From Acidobacteriota bacterium (GTDB lineage: Bacteria; Acidobacteriota; Vicinamibacteria; Vicinamibacterales; Vicinamibacteraceae), in NCBI GenBank assembly GCA_020845575.1, contig JADLFL010000046.1, positions 1 through 64,000 on the forward strand: DNA of 64,000 nt, read 5' to 3'. The notes beneath the pieces were generated by a model, which did no database searches, was not told the origin of the DNA, and worked only from the letters and a program-made list of their open reading frames with translations. The position numbers and the translations under genes are program-made. Below, piece by piece: positions 38,082 to 43,692 of this stretch; the stretch's first letter is position 1, and each line of letters starts with the position of its first letter.

Positions 38082-38119
38082 GGACAGTCACAAAGGAGGA
38101 AGCCACAAGTCACAAAGGG

Positions 38120-38735
38120 CACAGCACAAAGGCCGACCAGTCGCCGTTCGTCTTGGCGCTTCGTGACTCGATGCAGCCGTTCCCTTCGGGCTGACGGACG
38201 AAGGCCGGCGACGACGTCATGCCCAGGAAGCGGGCCTCGGCCTGAACGTCGGCGCTGAGATGGACACTCCCGTGATCGTGGCGCAGCGCCAGGCCGGTCG
38301 CGGTGGCGGGGGCGAGGCCGCCGAAGTGGTCGCGGACACCTTGGCGGAGCGGCTCGAGCGCTTCGAAGCGATCGCCGTGCGTGGCGGCGTGGATCCCGAC
38401 GCACTCGCGGTGCAGTGGTCGATCGCGGCGAAGATCGTGGCGGCGCCCTCGACGAGCGTGACGGCCGGTCGTGGGGTGGGCGTGTCGCGCACGCCGCGCG
38501 TAGAGCGTCGACCGGGACAGGTCCCACTCCCGTACGACGCGCGCGATCCCGTAGGGCCGGCGCGTGGAGGGCGACGACTCACGCTCTCCAGGTCGGCACC
38601 GCGCAACAGCTCGAGCACCACCGACACCTTCCGTCGCGCCGACCACCGCCCGGTGCCACCGCGGCTCGGCGAGGCTGAGGCCTCGCCTGGTTCTTGTCTG
38701 GACATACCCCTTTCTCCTTGCTCCAAAGGGCTGTC
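38120..38735 (-). pseudogene. Decayed IS3-family transposase (OrfA helix-turn-helix plus OrfB integrase-core fragments)
   Basis: Transposase fragments are spread over two minus-strand frames. RWSARRKVSVVLELLRGADLESVSRR is the OrfA helix-turn-helix start. YGIARVVREWDLSRSTLYARR is the OrfB start. IFAAIDHCTA continues in the other frame as ECVGIHAATHGDRFEALEPLRQGV, GLALRHDHGS and FLGMTSSPAFVRQPEGNGCIE from the DDE integrase core. Most of OrfA and the middle of OrfB are deleted, there are at least three frame changes and the final Glu region is lost, so it is non-functional. Repeat-like sequences in inverted orientation flank it. It accounts for the 0.7-kb gap between the MFS and AhpD-like genes. 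Confidence 0.8.
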
Positions 38736-38807
38736 CAATCATTTCGTGCGGCGCGGGATTGGCGCTTCGTGCCTTACCCTTGTGACTTTTCTCCTTTTTC
38801 GCTGTCC

Positions 38808-38835
38808 TTATCCGTTATCCATTGGACTTTGGACT
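38808..38835. repeat. Heptamer array (TTATCCG, TTATCCA, TTGGACT x2)
   Basis: Four units at exact 7-bp steps to the right of the IS remnant. Together with 38777-38807 it is an imperfect inverted counterpart of 38050-38125 (shared GGATAAGGACAG and GTCACAA words) on the other side. Confidence 0.75.
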
Positions 38836-39399
38836 TTCCTCACGCCCTACACCGAGTGCGTCGGCCACCCTGTTTATGTAGTTGAACCAGGACGCGATCA
38901 GCGTGATTTGCAGGATGCCGCGATCGTCGAAGCCGACGGCGCGCAGCCTGTCGTGGAACGCGGGCGAGATGCGCGTTGCGTCCTTCGTGATCTGCTCGAC
39001 GTACTCGAGCATCACGCGATCCTGATCCGGCAGCGGTACCTGACGGAAGTCCGTCTTCAACGTCTCGACGAATGCCTCGTCCAGCGTGACCCTACGCAGA
39101 AACTCTGCGTGAGATTCCAGTCAATACTGGCACCTGTTGGTCGCCGACACGACGGTGGTGATCATCTCGTGCTGGCGCCGCGTGAGCGGCAGGTCGGGCG
39201 ACATCAGCGCACCGAAGGCCGAGAACCCGTGGAAGAGCGCGTCGGGAATCAGCGAGTGCGACGCCACGATGCCGTCCGTCTGCGCGTGGTGCGGATGCGT
39301 CGGCTCGGCGTACTCGATCGGATAGAGCGTGTGCTGCGCCTCGCGCGCGCGCATCAGCGTTTCGTCGCTGTCGAACGGAACCACCTTGATCCAGGTCAT
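38815..39399 (-). CDS. AhpD/carboxymuconolactone-decarboxylase-type peroxidase, predicted selenoprotein (CxxU)
   Basis: The frame from the ATG at 39399 (AGGAG site upstream) runs 92 codons to an in-frame TGA at 39121-39123, then continues in the same frame for 101 more codons of recognisable protein ([74 protein letters not shown]). Read through, this gives the normal ~194-residue peroxidase-related enzyme. The TGA replaces the second Cys of the NxCxYCxxxH active site: Cys90-Gln-Tyr-[TGA 93]-Leu-Glu-Ser-His97. A SECIS-like hairpin follows immediately. I infer Sec93 in a thiol/selenol peroxidase. The start overlaps the APC permease stop (ATGA). The alternative is a nonsense pseudogene, which the hairpin and intact downstream frame argue against. 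Confidence 0.85.
39094..39110 (-). promoter_or_regulatory. Predicted bacterial SECIS hairpin
   Basis: On the coding strand, ten nucleotides after the TGA, ACGCAGA pairs perfectly with TCTGCGT around a GTT loop. The apical loop begins 17 nt after the UGA and its first base is G, within the published bacterial SECIS rules (apical loop about 16-37 nt from UGA with a G in its first two positions). SelB would bind it to deliver Sec-tRNA. Confidence 0.8.
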
Positions 39400-40730
39400 G
39401 GGAACGACTCCTCCTCACGCGACACCGGCGATCGCGCCTGAATGATACGGTAGACGGGCAGCGCCGCCAGCACCGTCACGGCACCGAGCAGGGCCAGCAG
39501 CGGGTTGCTCGCGCCGACGAGCACCAGCAGCACGCTCACCAGCAGCAGGAAGACGATGGCCGGCCACGGATGCATCGGCACGACGATCGACGGATCGCGG
39601 CGTCGCAGGACGAACACACCCACCACCGTCGCGGCGATGAACGCCACCACGATGAAGACGAAGAACGCGACGATCGACTCGAACGTGCCGATCGCCACGA
39701 GCAGCGAGGCCAGGATCGCCTGCGTCGCGATCGCGCGCGCCGGCGTCCCCCATCGCGGGTGGATGGCGGCCACGGCACCCGGCAGCACGCCGTCGCGCGC
39801 CATCGCCGTGTAGATCCGCGGCGCGATCATCTGCATCGCGCCAAGGCTGCCGAAGACGCAGACGATGACGATGGCCGCAACGACGGTGCCGCCGCCAGGT
39901 CCGAGCGTCGCCTCGCCAACCTGGGCGATGAACGCCTGCCCTTCCACGACCTCGCCTATCGGCACGACGGCAATGAACGACATTGTCGCCGCGACATAGG
40001 TGAGCGTCACGATGGCGAGCCCGATGAGGAGCGCTCGCGGCAGCGTCCACGACGGATCGCGCACTTCGCCGGCGATCCTCGTGACTTCCCACCATCCGCC
40101 GAACGAGAAGAACGCGGCGACGAACGAACCGGCGGCCGCGCCGACGAGCGGCGGTGCGCCGGGGTGTCGTGCGACGAACGGCACGAAGCGATTCCAGTCG
40201 GCAGCCGGACTGCTGAACGCGGCGACGGTCAGTGCCGCGACGAGCACGACCTTGAGTACGGCGATGGCGGTCAGCAGTCGCACGCCGAGCGTGACGCCGG
40301 CGATGTGGACGGCGGCGAACGTCGCGATCGCACCAATGGCCACCAGACGCATGCCCACATCGCCCATCGGGATGACGTACGCGACGTAGCCTGCCAGCCC
40401 GGCCGCCAATGCCGCCGTGATGCCCGGGTCCATCAACAACAGGCACATCCAGCCATACAGGAACGCGATCCGCAGGCCGTACGCCTCGCGCAGGTAGACG
40501 TAGCCGCCGCCGGCCTGCGGATAGCGCGATGCGAGCGCGCCGTAGCACAGCGCGCCGCACATCGCCATGGCCCCCATCACGCCCCACACAACCAGGACGC
40601 CGAGCGGCGACGCGATGCTGCGGATGATCGATCCCGGCGTGAGGAAGATGCCGACAGCGATGACCTGGCCGACGACAAGCGCGACCGCCGCCCACAACCG
40701 CAGCGGCCGCGCCGAGACAGACTCGGTCAT
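39396..40730 (-). CDS. APC-family amino acid permease
   Basis: 444 residues from the ATG at 40730 with 12 membrane helices. LWAAVALVVGQVIAVGIFLTPG carries the APC helix-1 unwound Gly motif, and FFSFGGWWEVTRIAGEVRDPSWTLPRALLIG the helix-6/loop signature (here WWEVTRIAGEV for the usual YExxxxxAEEx). It is a cytoplasmic-membrane amino-acid importer or exchanger of unknown substrate. It starts 1 bp after the TonB-receptor stop, and its own stop overlaps the AhpD-like ATG. The three form one tightly packed operon, possibly outer- and inner-membrane uptake plus a redox enzyme. Confidence 0.88.
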   Translation of the reverse strand: MTESVSARPLRLWAAVALVVGQVIAVGIFLTPGSIIRSIASPLGVLVVWGVMGAMAMCGALCYGALASRYPQAGGGYVYLREAYGLRIAFLYGWMCLLLMDPGITAALAAGLAGYVAYVIPMGDVGMRLVAIGAIATFAAVHIAGVTLGVRLLTAIAVLKVVLVAALTVAAFSSPAADWNRFVPFVARHPGAPPLVGAAAGSFVAAFFSFGGWWEVTRIAGEVRDPSWTLPRALLIGLAIVTLTYVAATMSFIAVVPIGEVVEGQAFIAQVGEATLGPGGGTVVAAIVIVCVFGSLGAMQMIAPRIYTAMARDGVLPGAVAAIHPRWGTPARAIATQAILASLLVAIGTFESIVAFFVFIVVAFIAATVVGVFVLRRRDPSIVVPMHPWPAIVFLLLVSVLLVLVGASNPLLALLGAVTVLAALPVYRIIQARSPVSREEESFP

Positions 40731-40731
40731 C

Positions 40732-43692
40732 TCAGAACGTGGCGCGCACGGCGAACTGGAACGCGCGCGGCCCGCCCGATCCGAACACGCCGCCCGCTGT
40801 CGAGATCGCCTCACCGAAACCCGAGGAGCGCATGTAGCCCGCCGACGTCGGATCGCCGCTGTCGCGCACGAGCACGTTGGCGTACCCCGAGTAGTTCTTC
40901 ACGCTCGAGCCGAGCACGTTGGTCACGTTGAAGACGTTGAAGACCTCGACGATGGGTTCGACGCGCACGCGACCGCCGCCGATCGCGAACGGACGCGACA
41001 CGCGCAGGTCCACCGACGCGAACCCGTCGCTGAATCGTGCATCGTCTCGCACGTACGGCAGCAACTGGCCGTCGACGCCGCCCGCGGCGTTGAGGGTGGC
41101 CAGCGCCGCGTTGAGGTCTGCGCCGGTCTTGAACAGCCGGCCACCGGCGTTGCGCTGGAATGCCGGCACGCGCGACTGCCCGTCGGGCATGAGGATGTCC
41201 ATCGGCACGCCTGACGCCAGCGTCATGATTGGCGCGACTCGCACGCCGGCCGGTGCCTCCATCCACGCCGCCAGCGCGAAGCGGTGGCGCTGATCATTCG
41301 GCGTCGGCCCGTACTCGCGGCGCAGGTCGTTGGGGTCGAGCGGCCCGTTGGCGAACGGGATCTGATCGTCGTTGGCGTAGTTGAACGCCTTGGCGAACGT
41401 GTACGACGCGCGGAAGCCGAGGCGCGCGCTGCGGCGTTCGGCGCTCACGAGCAGGGCGTCGTAGCGCGTGCCGACGCTCGACTCGAGGTTGACGACACGA
41501 TCGGGCCCGCCGACGACGGGATTGAAGACCTCGCCGATGTCGCGCCCGATGATGAAATGCGATCCCGCGGCGTGGATGCCGTCGACGCGCAGCACCGTGT
41601 TCCACGGGAGCTCGCGCTGGAACCCGAGGTTGAACTGCTGCACGCTCGGGTTCTGCATCGCGTTGTCGATGATGTTGATGCCCGACGCGCCGGCGCCCGG
41701 CAGGATGAAGCCCGTGAACGGGTTCGCCGTCGACGGGGCGAACGGCGGGAACCGTCCCGTCATCGGGTCGAGGAAGAACACGTTGCCCGCGCGCACTTCG
41801 ATGGGCAGCGCACGCCCGTCGAGACCGCGCTCGAGCGACTGGATCTGCAGCGTGATGCGGTCGTAGTAAATCCCGTAGCCGCCGTGGACGCTCATGCGGC
41901 CGCCGTCGGGCGCCCAGTTGAAGCCCACGCGCGGCGACCAGTTGTTCATGTCGCGCTTCCGCGTGCCCTTCAGGAAGGGTGCGACGATCGGATTGATGTT
42001 CCCGACGCGGCTGATGTTCTTCACGTCGGTATCGAACTCGTAACGAAGGCCGACGTTGAGCGTCAGGTCCGGCCTGACGCGCCAGTCGTCCTGCACGAAG
42101 AACGCCACGTGATGGTTGTCGGCATCGGGCAGCTTCAGGCCGCGGTCGGGAAAGGCGCTGCGCAGCGTGACCGCGAACAGCAGATCGCCATCGTCCACGC
42201 GACCGTCGCCGTTGGCGTCGTAGCTCGGGAAGTCTTCGACGAGTTCGATACGCCCGTCGAGGAACACGTCGAGGTCGAACAGCGCGTCGACGCGCTGCCA
42301 TTCGCCGCCCACGCGCAGGCCGTGCGCACCACGCGTCCAGGACAGGGTGTTGGCCAACTGGAAGCGCTTCTGCGTCGTGCCCTGCGGCACGCGGAACGAG
42401 GAACCGTCGAGCATGCTCGGGAACGTGTACTGCGGCCCGCGCGCGACGGGCACGATCGTGTTGTCGAACGTGCTGAACGACGTCGTGAGTGCGTTGACGA
42501 TCGACGGGCTCACGATGCGCGTCCACGTGCCGACGACCGACTGATACGCATTCCTGCTGCGCTGGCGATACGACGCCGAGCCGATCGCGCGATCGAGCGT
42601 GCTCGCGCCCGTGTCTTCCGCACGCTCGCCGGCGTAGCGCACGCTGAGCGAGTCCTCGGAGCCGAATCGCACGTCGATGCGGCCGGAGCCCAGGAGATCG
42701 TCGAGCGGCGCCGGAGCGAACGACCTCCGGATGGTCCGCGCTGCGACGTCGCGCTCACCCACCAGCACCGCGCCGTTCTGGTTGCGATACTCCGCGGCGA
42801 CGAACCAGAACGCCCGTCCGGGTGCGAGCGGACCGCCGAGCGCTCCCGCGATCTGCTGGCGGTCGAACGGCAGCGACTCGCCGCTCGATCTGTCGTACGT
42901 GGCGGGCAGCGCCTGCCACGCGCTGTCGCGCGCGAAGAACGAGAGTGACCCGCGCAGGCTGTCCGTTCCAGAACGGGTCACCACGTTGATCGATGAGGAT
43001 GCCGATCGACCGAGCTCCGCGGTGAACCGCTGCGTGGCGATCTGGAACTCCTGCACCGCCTCCTGCGTGACGTTCTGCAGCGGACCACCCACCACGTCGT
43101 CGTTGTTGTCGGCGCCGTCGATCGTGATGTTGCCGCCCCGACCGAGCTGACCGGCCGACGAGATGACCACGGTGTTGGACTTGGTGGGATCGAAGTTCGG
43201 TGCGGGCGTGTTGCCCGGTACGAGCAGCGCCAGTTCGAGGAAGTTGCGACCGTTGAGCGGCAGGACGTCGATGGCCGCCGACGGGATCACGGCGTCGACG
43301 ACCGAGCGCGTGGTGTCGACGGCCGCGGCACCGGCGGTGACCGTGAGCGACTCGTCGATGCCCGCCACGCTCATGTCGATGTCGACAACGAGCGTCTGCC
43401 CTACTTCGAGGAGGAGTCCGCGCCGTGCGACGTCGGTCAATCCCGGTGCAGACACGGCCACGTCGACAATCGCCGGCGGGAGATTGGCGATGAGGAAGCT
43501 CCCGTCGGCCGACGTCGGCACTTCGCGCGTCGCGCCTGTTGCCGGCGCGGTCACGGTCACGCGTGCTCCGGCGATCGGCGCGGACTGCGCATCCTGCACA
43601 CGACCACGGATCGTCGACGTCACCTGCGCCTGCGCCGTCGTCGACAGCACGCCCAGCATCATCCCCACCATCCACACACACGCGTATCGCAT
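40732..43692 (-). CDS. TonB-dependent receptor with carboxypeptidase-regulatory N-terminal domain
   Basis: About 986 residues. The first Met of the frame is at 43701 (MKRMRYACVWMVGMMLGVLSTTAQAQ); the second, at 43692, leaves the signal peptide intact. CarboxypepD_reg-like domain about 27-110 (IRGRVQDAQSAPIAGARVTVTAP), plug domain with DVLPLNGRNFLELALLVPGNTPAPNF and NITIDGADNNDDVVGG, AELGRSASSSINVVTRSGTDSLRGSL, then a barrel ending FQFAVRATF. Typical Oar-type acidobacterial receptor. It heads the operon with the APC permease and the predicted selenoprotein, so its ligand may be a peptide or amino-acid derivative; this is inference. Confidence 0.88.
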   Translation of the reverse strand: MRYACVWMVGMMLGVLSTTAQAQVTSTIRGRVQDAQSAPIAGARVTVTAPATGATREVPTSADGSFLIANLPPAIVDVAVSAPGLTDVARRGLLLEVGQTLVVDIDMSVAGIDESLTVTAGAAAVDTTRSVVDAVIPSAAIDVLPLNGRNFLELALLVPGNTPAPNFDPTKSNTVVISSAGQLGRGGNITIDGADNNDDVVGGPLQNVTQEAVQEFQIATQRFTAELGRSASSSINVVTRSGTDSLRGSLSFFARDSAWQALPATYDRSSGESLPFDRQQIAGALGGPLAPGRAFWFVAAEYRNQNGAVLVGERDVAARTIRRSFAPAPLDDLLGSGRIDVRFGSEDSLSVRYAGERAEDTGASTLDRAIGSASYRQRSRNAYQSVVGTWTRIVSPSIVNALTTSFSTFDNTIVPVARGPQYTFPSMLDGSSFRVPQGTTQKRFQLANTLSWTRGAHGLRVGGEWQRVDALFDLDVFLDGRIELVEDFPSYDANGDGRVDDGDLLFAVTLRSAFPDRGLKLPDADNHHVAFFVQDDWRVRPDLTLNVGLRYEFDTDVKNISRVGNINPIVAPFLKGTRKRDMNNWSPRVGFNWAPDGGRMSVHGGYGIYYDRITLQIQSLERGLDGRALPIEVRAGNVFFLDPMTGRFPPFAPSTANPFTGFILPGAGASGINIIDNAMQNPSVQQFNLGFQRELPWNTVLRVDGIHAAGSHFIIGRDIGEVFNPVVGGPDRVVNLESSVGTRYDALLVSAERRSARLGFRASYTFAKAFNYANDDQIPFANGPLDPNDLRREYGPTPNDQRHRFALAAWMEAPAGVRVAPIMTLASGVPMDILMPDGQSRVPAFQRNAGGRLFKTGADLNAALATLNAAGGVDGQLLPYVRDDARFSDGFASVDLRVSRPFAIGGGRVRVEPIVEVFNVFNVTNVLGSSVKNYSGYANVLVRDSGDPTSAGYMRSSGFGEAISTAGGVFGSGGPRAFQFAVRATF

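Follow-up and report, generated by a model that had tools for sequence, protein, structure and literature searches.

A predicted bSECIS hairpin behind the in-frame UGA of an AhpD-like selenoprotein gene in an Acidobacteriota bacterium

The AhpD-like gene and its neighbours

The window analysed here, a stretch of 64,000 nucleotides (64 kb) of DNA from a soil bacterium of the Acidobacteriota, carries on its minus strand an AhpD-like gene with an in-frame UGA, followed by a short hairpin and preceded by a permease gene:

38815-39399, minus strand: predicted selenoprotein gene of the AhpD-like, peroxidase-related type with a CMD domain; 194 codons, counting the UGA (translation, HMM and structural relatives)
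39121-39123, minus strand: in-frame UGA, predicted Sec93 of CQYU, at the second Cys of CxxC (TGA in 109 of 110 close relatives)
39111-39120, minus strand: 10-nt spacer between UGA and stem, CTGGAATCTC (sequence)
39104-39110, minus strand: 5' arm of the putative bSECIS stem, ACGCAGA (sequence, fold, codon constraint and co-variation)
39101-39103, minus strand: apical loop GUU, first base G (sequence and fold; G conserved in TGA relatives)
39094-39100, minus strand: 3' arm of the putative bSECIS stem, UCUGCGU (sequence, fold, codon constraint and co-variation)
39396-40736, minus strand: APC-family amino acid permease gene, directly upstream, its stop overlapping the start of the selenoprotein gene (ATGA, 39396-39399)

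Translation of the gene from the ATG at 39397-39399, with the TGA read as Sec, gives 194 residues containing the motif NRCQYU, in which the CxxC site reads CQYU (residues 90-93). The protein scores 101.2 bits against TIGR01926 (peroxidase-related enzyme), over the cut-off of 81.8, the CMD domain is also matched, and CQYU supplies the CxxU motif by which an AhpD-like TIGR01926 selenoprotein is recognised. Relatives of known structure bear the annotation AhpD-like or peroxidase-related, and when the protein is aligned with two of them, 2pfx and 2oyo, Sec falls on the second Cys of CxxC. The gene most likely encodes a selenoprotein of 194 residues, which a standard-code reading trims to 92. Relatives within the genus are 85-88% identical across the UGA, and the part of the protein that follows it is 89-93% identical among four genus members, with dN of 0.04-0.06 against dS of 0.3-0.7. 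Since dN lies far below dS after the UGA, the downstream frame appears to be translated and selected.

The permease and the selenoprotein gene are likely to share a transcript. A same-strand permease stands upstream in 39 of the 97 loci with enough upstream sequence, from several phyla, forming a conserved pair (L015-L017, L048, L073, L075, L088 and L097 are among them, and L031, the closest Cys relative, is counted by a weak partial match only). Just downstream of the gene, positions 38110-38742 of the minus strand hold overlapping broken frames that resemble the remains of an insertion-sequence transposase (RWSARRKVSVVLELL...); a Pfam search with one of these frames gave no match.

The hairpin and the Sec machinery of the host

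From 39123 the minus strand reads TGA CTGGAATCTC ACGCAGA GTT TCTGCGT AGG, that is, a perfect, bulge-free 7-bp stem with a 3-nt loop, occupying 39094-39110 and starting 10 nt past the in-frame UGA. This geometry had been reported in a preliminary description made from the sequence, together with a loop placed 17 nt from the UGA and having G as its first base, and both observations hold (the loop being GUU). According to the bSECIS model (PMC13188914), an in-frame Sec UGA lies immediately upstream of the element, the upper stem has 4-16 bp, the loop has 3-9 nt with a G at position 1 or 2, often with G or U next, the distance from UGA to loop is 16-37 nt, and the free energy is -7.5 kcal/mol or lower. 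These rules were coded in a script, with the spacing minimum set to 15 and not 16. The UGA at 39121-39123 upstream of the stem, the 7 bp and 3-nt loop, the G of GUU, the spacing of 17 nt and the free energy (-8.2 kcal/mol for the isolated hairpin, -13.7 kcal/mol for a 48-nt stretch) all lie within the model.

The z-score of the 48-nt fold is only -0.62, so its overall stability is not exceptional and gives no support for the element by itself; a scan of the AhpD-like gene with Rfam returned chance matches only and none to a SECIS. It had been argued in the preliminary description that such a stem at this place was unlikely by chance and supported a selenoprotein independently. This stands for the exact layout (TGA, 10 nt, 7 bp and a 3-nt loop beginning with G), which occurs once when both strands of the window are searched, with about 0.17 occurrences expected per 64-kb strand, or about 2e-4 per TGA, by a first-order Markov model that is rough, being based on 6 simulated strands. 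The argument is weakened by the fact that a looser bSECIS rule (at least 7 bp, loop 3-9, spacing 16-37) already admits about 2.5% of all the window's TGAs. Perfect 7-bp stems with 3-nt loops number 13 in the 64 kb. Taking into account the z-score and the frequency of looser hairpins, the hairpin alone is suggestive and not proof, and conviction has to come from the comparative evidence.

The host genome assembly (78 contigs, 95.8% complete) contains a tRNA-Sec (65.3 bits, anticodon TCA), SelA (400 bits), SelB (305 bits, over the cut-off) and SelD (334 bits), whose gene has one in-frame TGA of its own:

G000:C27:5467-6393: host selD (L157), also predicted to encode a selenoprotein; its in-frame TGA precedes an 8-bp hairpin with a GCU loop

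The selD hairpin, which is kept in the genus, resembles that of the AhpD-like gene in its perfect stem and 3-nt G-first loop directly after an in-frame UGA, whereas its 8-bp stem, the position of its loop at 15 nt and its unrelated sequence set it apart. Its spacing of 15 nt falls barely short of the 16-37 nt that the bSECIS model allows. In G282, a genome of the same order, a TGA-type homologue (G282:C9:189916-190365) is accompanied by SelD and a tRNA-Sec candidate of 61.7 bits; no SelB was found over the cut-off, possibly due to an assembly gap.

Read-through of stops is known in general, and the UGA could in principle be decoded by near-cognate Trp suppression or under a reassigned code. 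However, it is a Cys, the second of CxxC, and not a Trp that stands opposite the residue in the alignments, there is a single such UGA in a frame that is standard for the rest, and the genome holds a tRNA-Sec with the TCA anticodon together with SelA, SelB and SelD, which leaves this explanation with next to no probability.

Relatives carrying UGA or Cys

Over 200 related genes were compared in all. The first set comprised 110 close relatives, nearly all from metagenome bins, assigned by their record titles to Acidobacteria, Gemmatimonadetes, Latescibacterota, KSB1, Zixibacteriota and Planctomycetota; the codon at the UGA site is TGA in 109 of them and TGC in the other. For codon and stem counts, 103 non-identical close TGA genes were used. 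All seven stem pairs are present in 95 of these and six of the seven in the other 8, and 89 carry the identical 17-mer. The hairpin codons 97-102 (CAC GCA GAG TTT CTG CGT) are the six least variable among the 102 conserved codons, with a normalised codon entropy of 0.07 as opposed to 0.78 (p = 2e-5 by Mann-Whitney test). Within the hairpin codon identity reaches 0.96, compared with 0.44 elsewhere, and the codons flanking it on either side vary freely.

A frozen segment of this kind might have been kept for some cause other than a SECIS, such as the peptide HAEFLR, which is conserved too, a regulatory site or a recent gene transfer, and the identical 17-mer in 89 of the 103 genes would suit such a cause. 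Recent transfer, however, cannot account for it, since synonymous sites have diverged elsewhere in the gene, as the codon identity of 0.44 indicates. The explanation is also opposed by the evidence of the wider family, in which different sequences maintain the stem in other subfamilies and genes with a Cys codon have lost it. When wider TIGR01926 members were added (169 distinct TGA sequences and 24 Cys sequences), the stem variants ACGGAGA/UCUCCGU, ACGGGGA/UCUCCGU and ACGGGGC/GCUCCGU were found among the TGA relatives. Pair 4 flips from C-G (103) to G-C (34), where Ala gives way to Gly on one side and the Leu codon shifts synonymously from CTG to CTC on the other, and pair 7 flips from A-U (119) to C-G (10). 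Across the 169 TGA sequences 87% of pair positions are formed (96% in TGA relatives scoring at least 250), compared with 24-58% in slid controls. Double-sided cells number 47, against a shuffle mean of 19 and a maximum of 31; the slid control at -2 also reaches 45, but with just 58% paired. All 169 have a G as the first or second base of the loop.

In the 24 Cys sequences, 37% of pair positions form, a value not above that of shuffles, and a stable hairpin obeying the rules is found in 17%, versus 90% in the close TGA group and 6% in random codons of the same genes. The closest Cys relative (L031, G020:C125:5491-6015) branches within the TGA clade, where the genus of the window is its sister group with support of 99/93; its codon is TGC and its stem is gone (3 of 7 pairs). 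Neither SelB nor SelD was found over the cut-off in its genome, and no tRNA-Sec was detected there, the best match (47.1 bits) being a tRNA-Ser according to ARAGORN. Its motif is NRTRYC where the present gene has NRCQYU, that is, the first Cys has also gone, and the loss of Sec was thus accompanied by loss of its partner Cys.

With these data, conservation of the segment for a cause unrelated to a SECIS becomes very improbable. Even less can be said for the UGA as an ordinary stop or pseudogene mutation with a coincidental hairpin behind it, an idea to which the ordinary fold stability and the loose bSECIS-like hairpins after about 2.5% of the window's TGAs would be congenial: 109 of 110 close relatives, spread over several phyla, share the TGA at this position, the protein downstream is under purifying selection, the hairpin codons are frozen and the stem co-varies, and the Sec machinery is encoded in the genome. 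The bSECIS is therefore the reading retained. As for the comparison of stem co-variation in TGA and Cys homologues proposed in the preliminary description, it returned compensatory changes between TGA subfamilies and Cys sequences devoid of the stem. Two findings had been named there as adverse. Cys homologues that keep the stem equally did not appear, and TGA homologues without it were absent among close relatives; a subset of distant TGA relatives does depart from the expectation, having hairpins in other registers.

These registers are several. In a near-clade of TGA-bearing TIGR01926 relatives (L197, L191, L204, L202, L144, L142, L141, L150, L134, L149, L207 and L198), the best hairpin is of the type CGACCUC-CGUGCC-GAGGUCG, with a 6-nt loop at +24 and not +17, and by its sequence it is a predicted bSECIS shifted by 7 nt; two changes on the tree suffice for its distribution. 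Further TGA relatives have the loop at +16, +18 or +20, and in some the hairpin search found none. It is conceivable, though we advance it only tentatively, that in this family the bSECIS was remodelled on several occasions and that a minimal class with a three-nucleotide loop, perhaps read by sequence together with structure, exists. The several registers would then offer a natural series for finding what the SelB proteins of Acidobacteriota read.

Proposed function and known systems

The open frame with protein-level selection before and after the UGA, the link of the stem to TGA, the frozen codons, the co-variation and the Sec machinery of the genome support the selenoprotein and SECIS reading put forward in the preliminary description, and the hairpin is almost certainly, on comparative sequence grounds, a bSECIS directing Sec insertion at the UGA of an AhpD-like CxxU protein. 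The hairpin would fold in the mRNA 10 nt after the UGA, and its apical stem and G-first loop would be bound by SelB carrying Sec-tRNA-Sec and GTP, so that Sec would be delivered to the ribosome at the UGA instead of termination. The product would be the complete peroxidase-related protein of the AhpD-like CxxU type, in which, judging by homology, Sec would serve as an active-site redox residue, and its function would presumably be peroxidase-like.

A 2026 review (PMC13188914) counts an AhpD-like protein of TIGR01926, from a metagenome study of the Sargasso Sea (PMC1088965), among the CxxU selenoproteins. The family is thus already known, and the present gene is a clear new example of it, not a novel type. 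It shares with the Sargasso gene, AACY01418594, the assignment to TIGR01926 by HMM, the CxxU motif and a bSECIS directly downstream of the UGA, and differs in coming from Acidobacteriota. The AhpD-related selenoprotein NF041238 (Sargasso hypothetical protein 1) is similar in its AhpD-type domain and the position of CxxU; membership of that family was rejected, the score being 54.4 bits against a cut-off of 175. The SECIS of Escherichia coli fdhF combines a loop of the GGUCU type with a bulged U. A hairpin a few nucleotides past the UGA and recognition by SelB, presumed in the present case, are common to both elements, whereas the loop GUU and the perfect 7-bp stem without a bulge exclude the fdhF type here.

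In a 2006 survey, Acidobacteriota had only 3 selenoprotein families, with 4 proteins (PMC1794560), and our literature search found no paper dedicated to Acidobacteria with a TIGR01926 AhpD-like selenoprotein. The near-invariant hairpin, its co-variation and its loss alongside the Sec machinery in the one close Cys lineage provide comparative data of unusual clarity on the evolution of bSECIS elements in Acidobacteriota. With a hairpin frozen across phyla, and shifted to other registers in other subfamilies, this goes slightly beyond what was known of this selenoprotein family.
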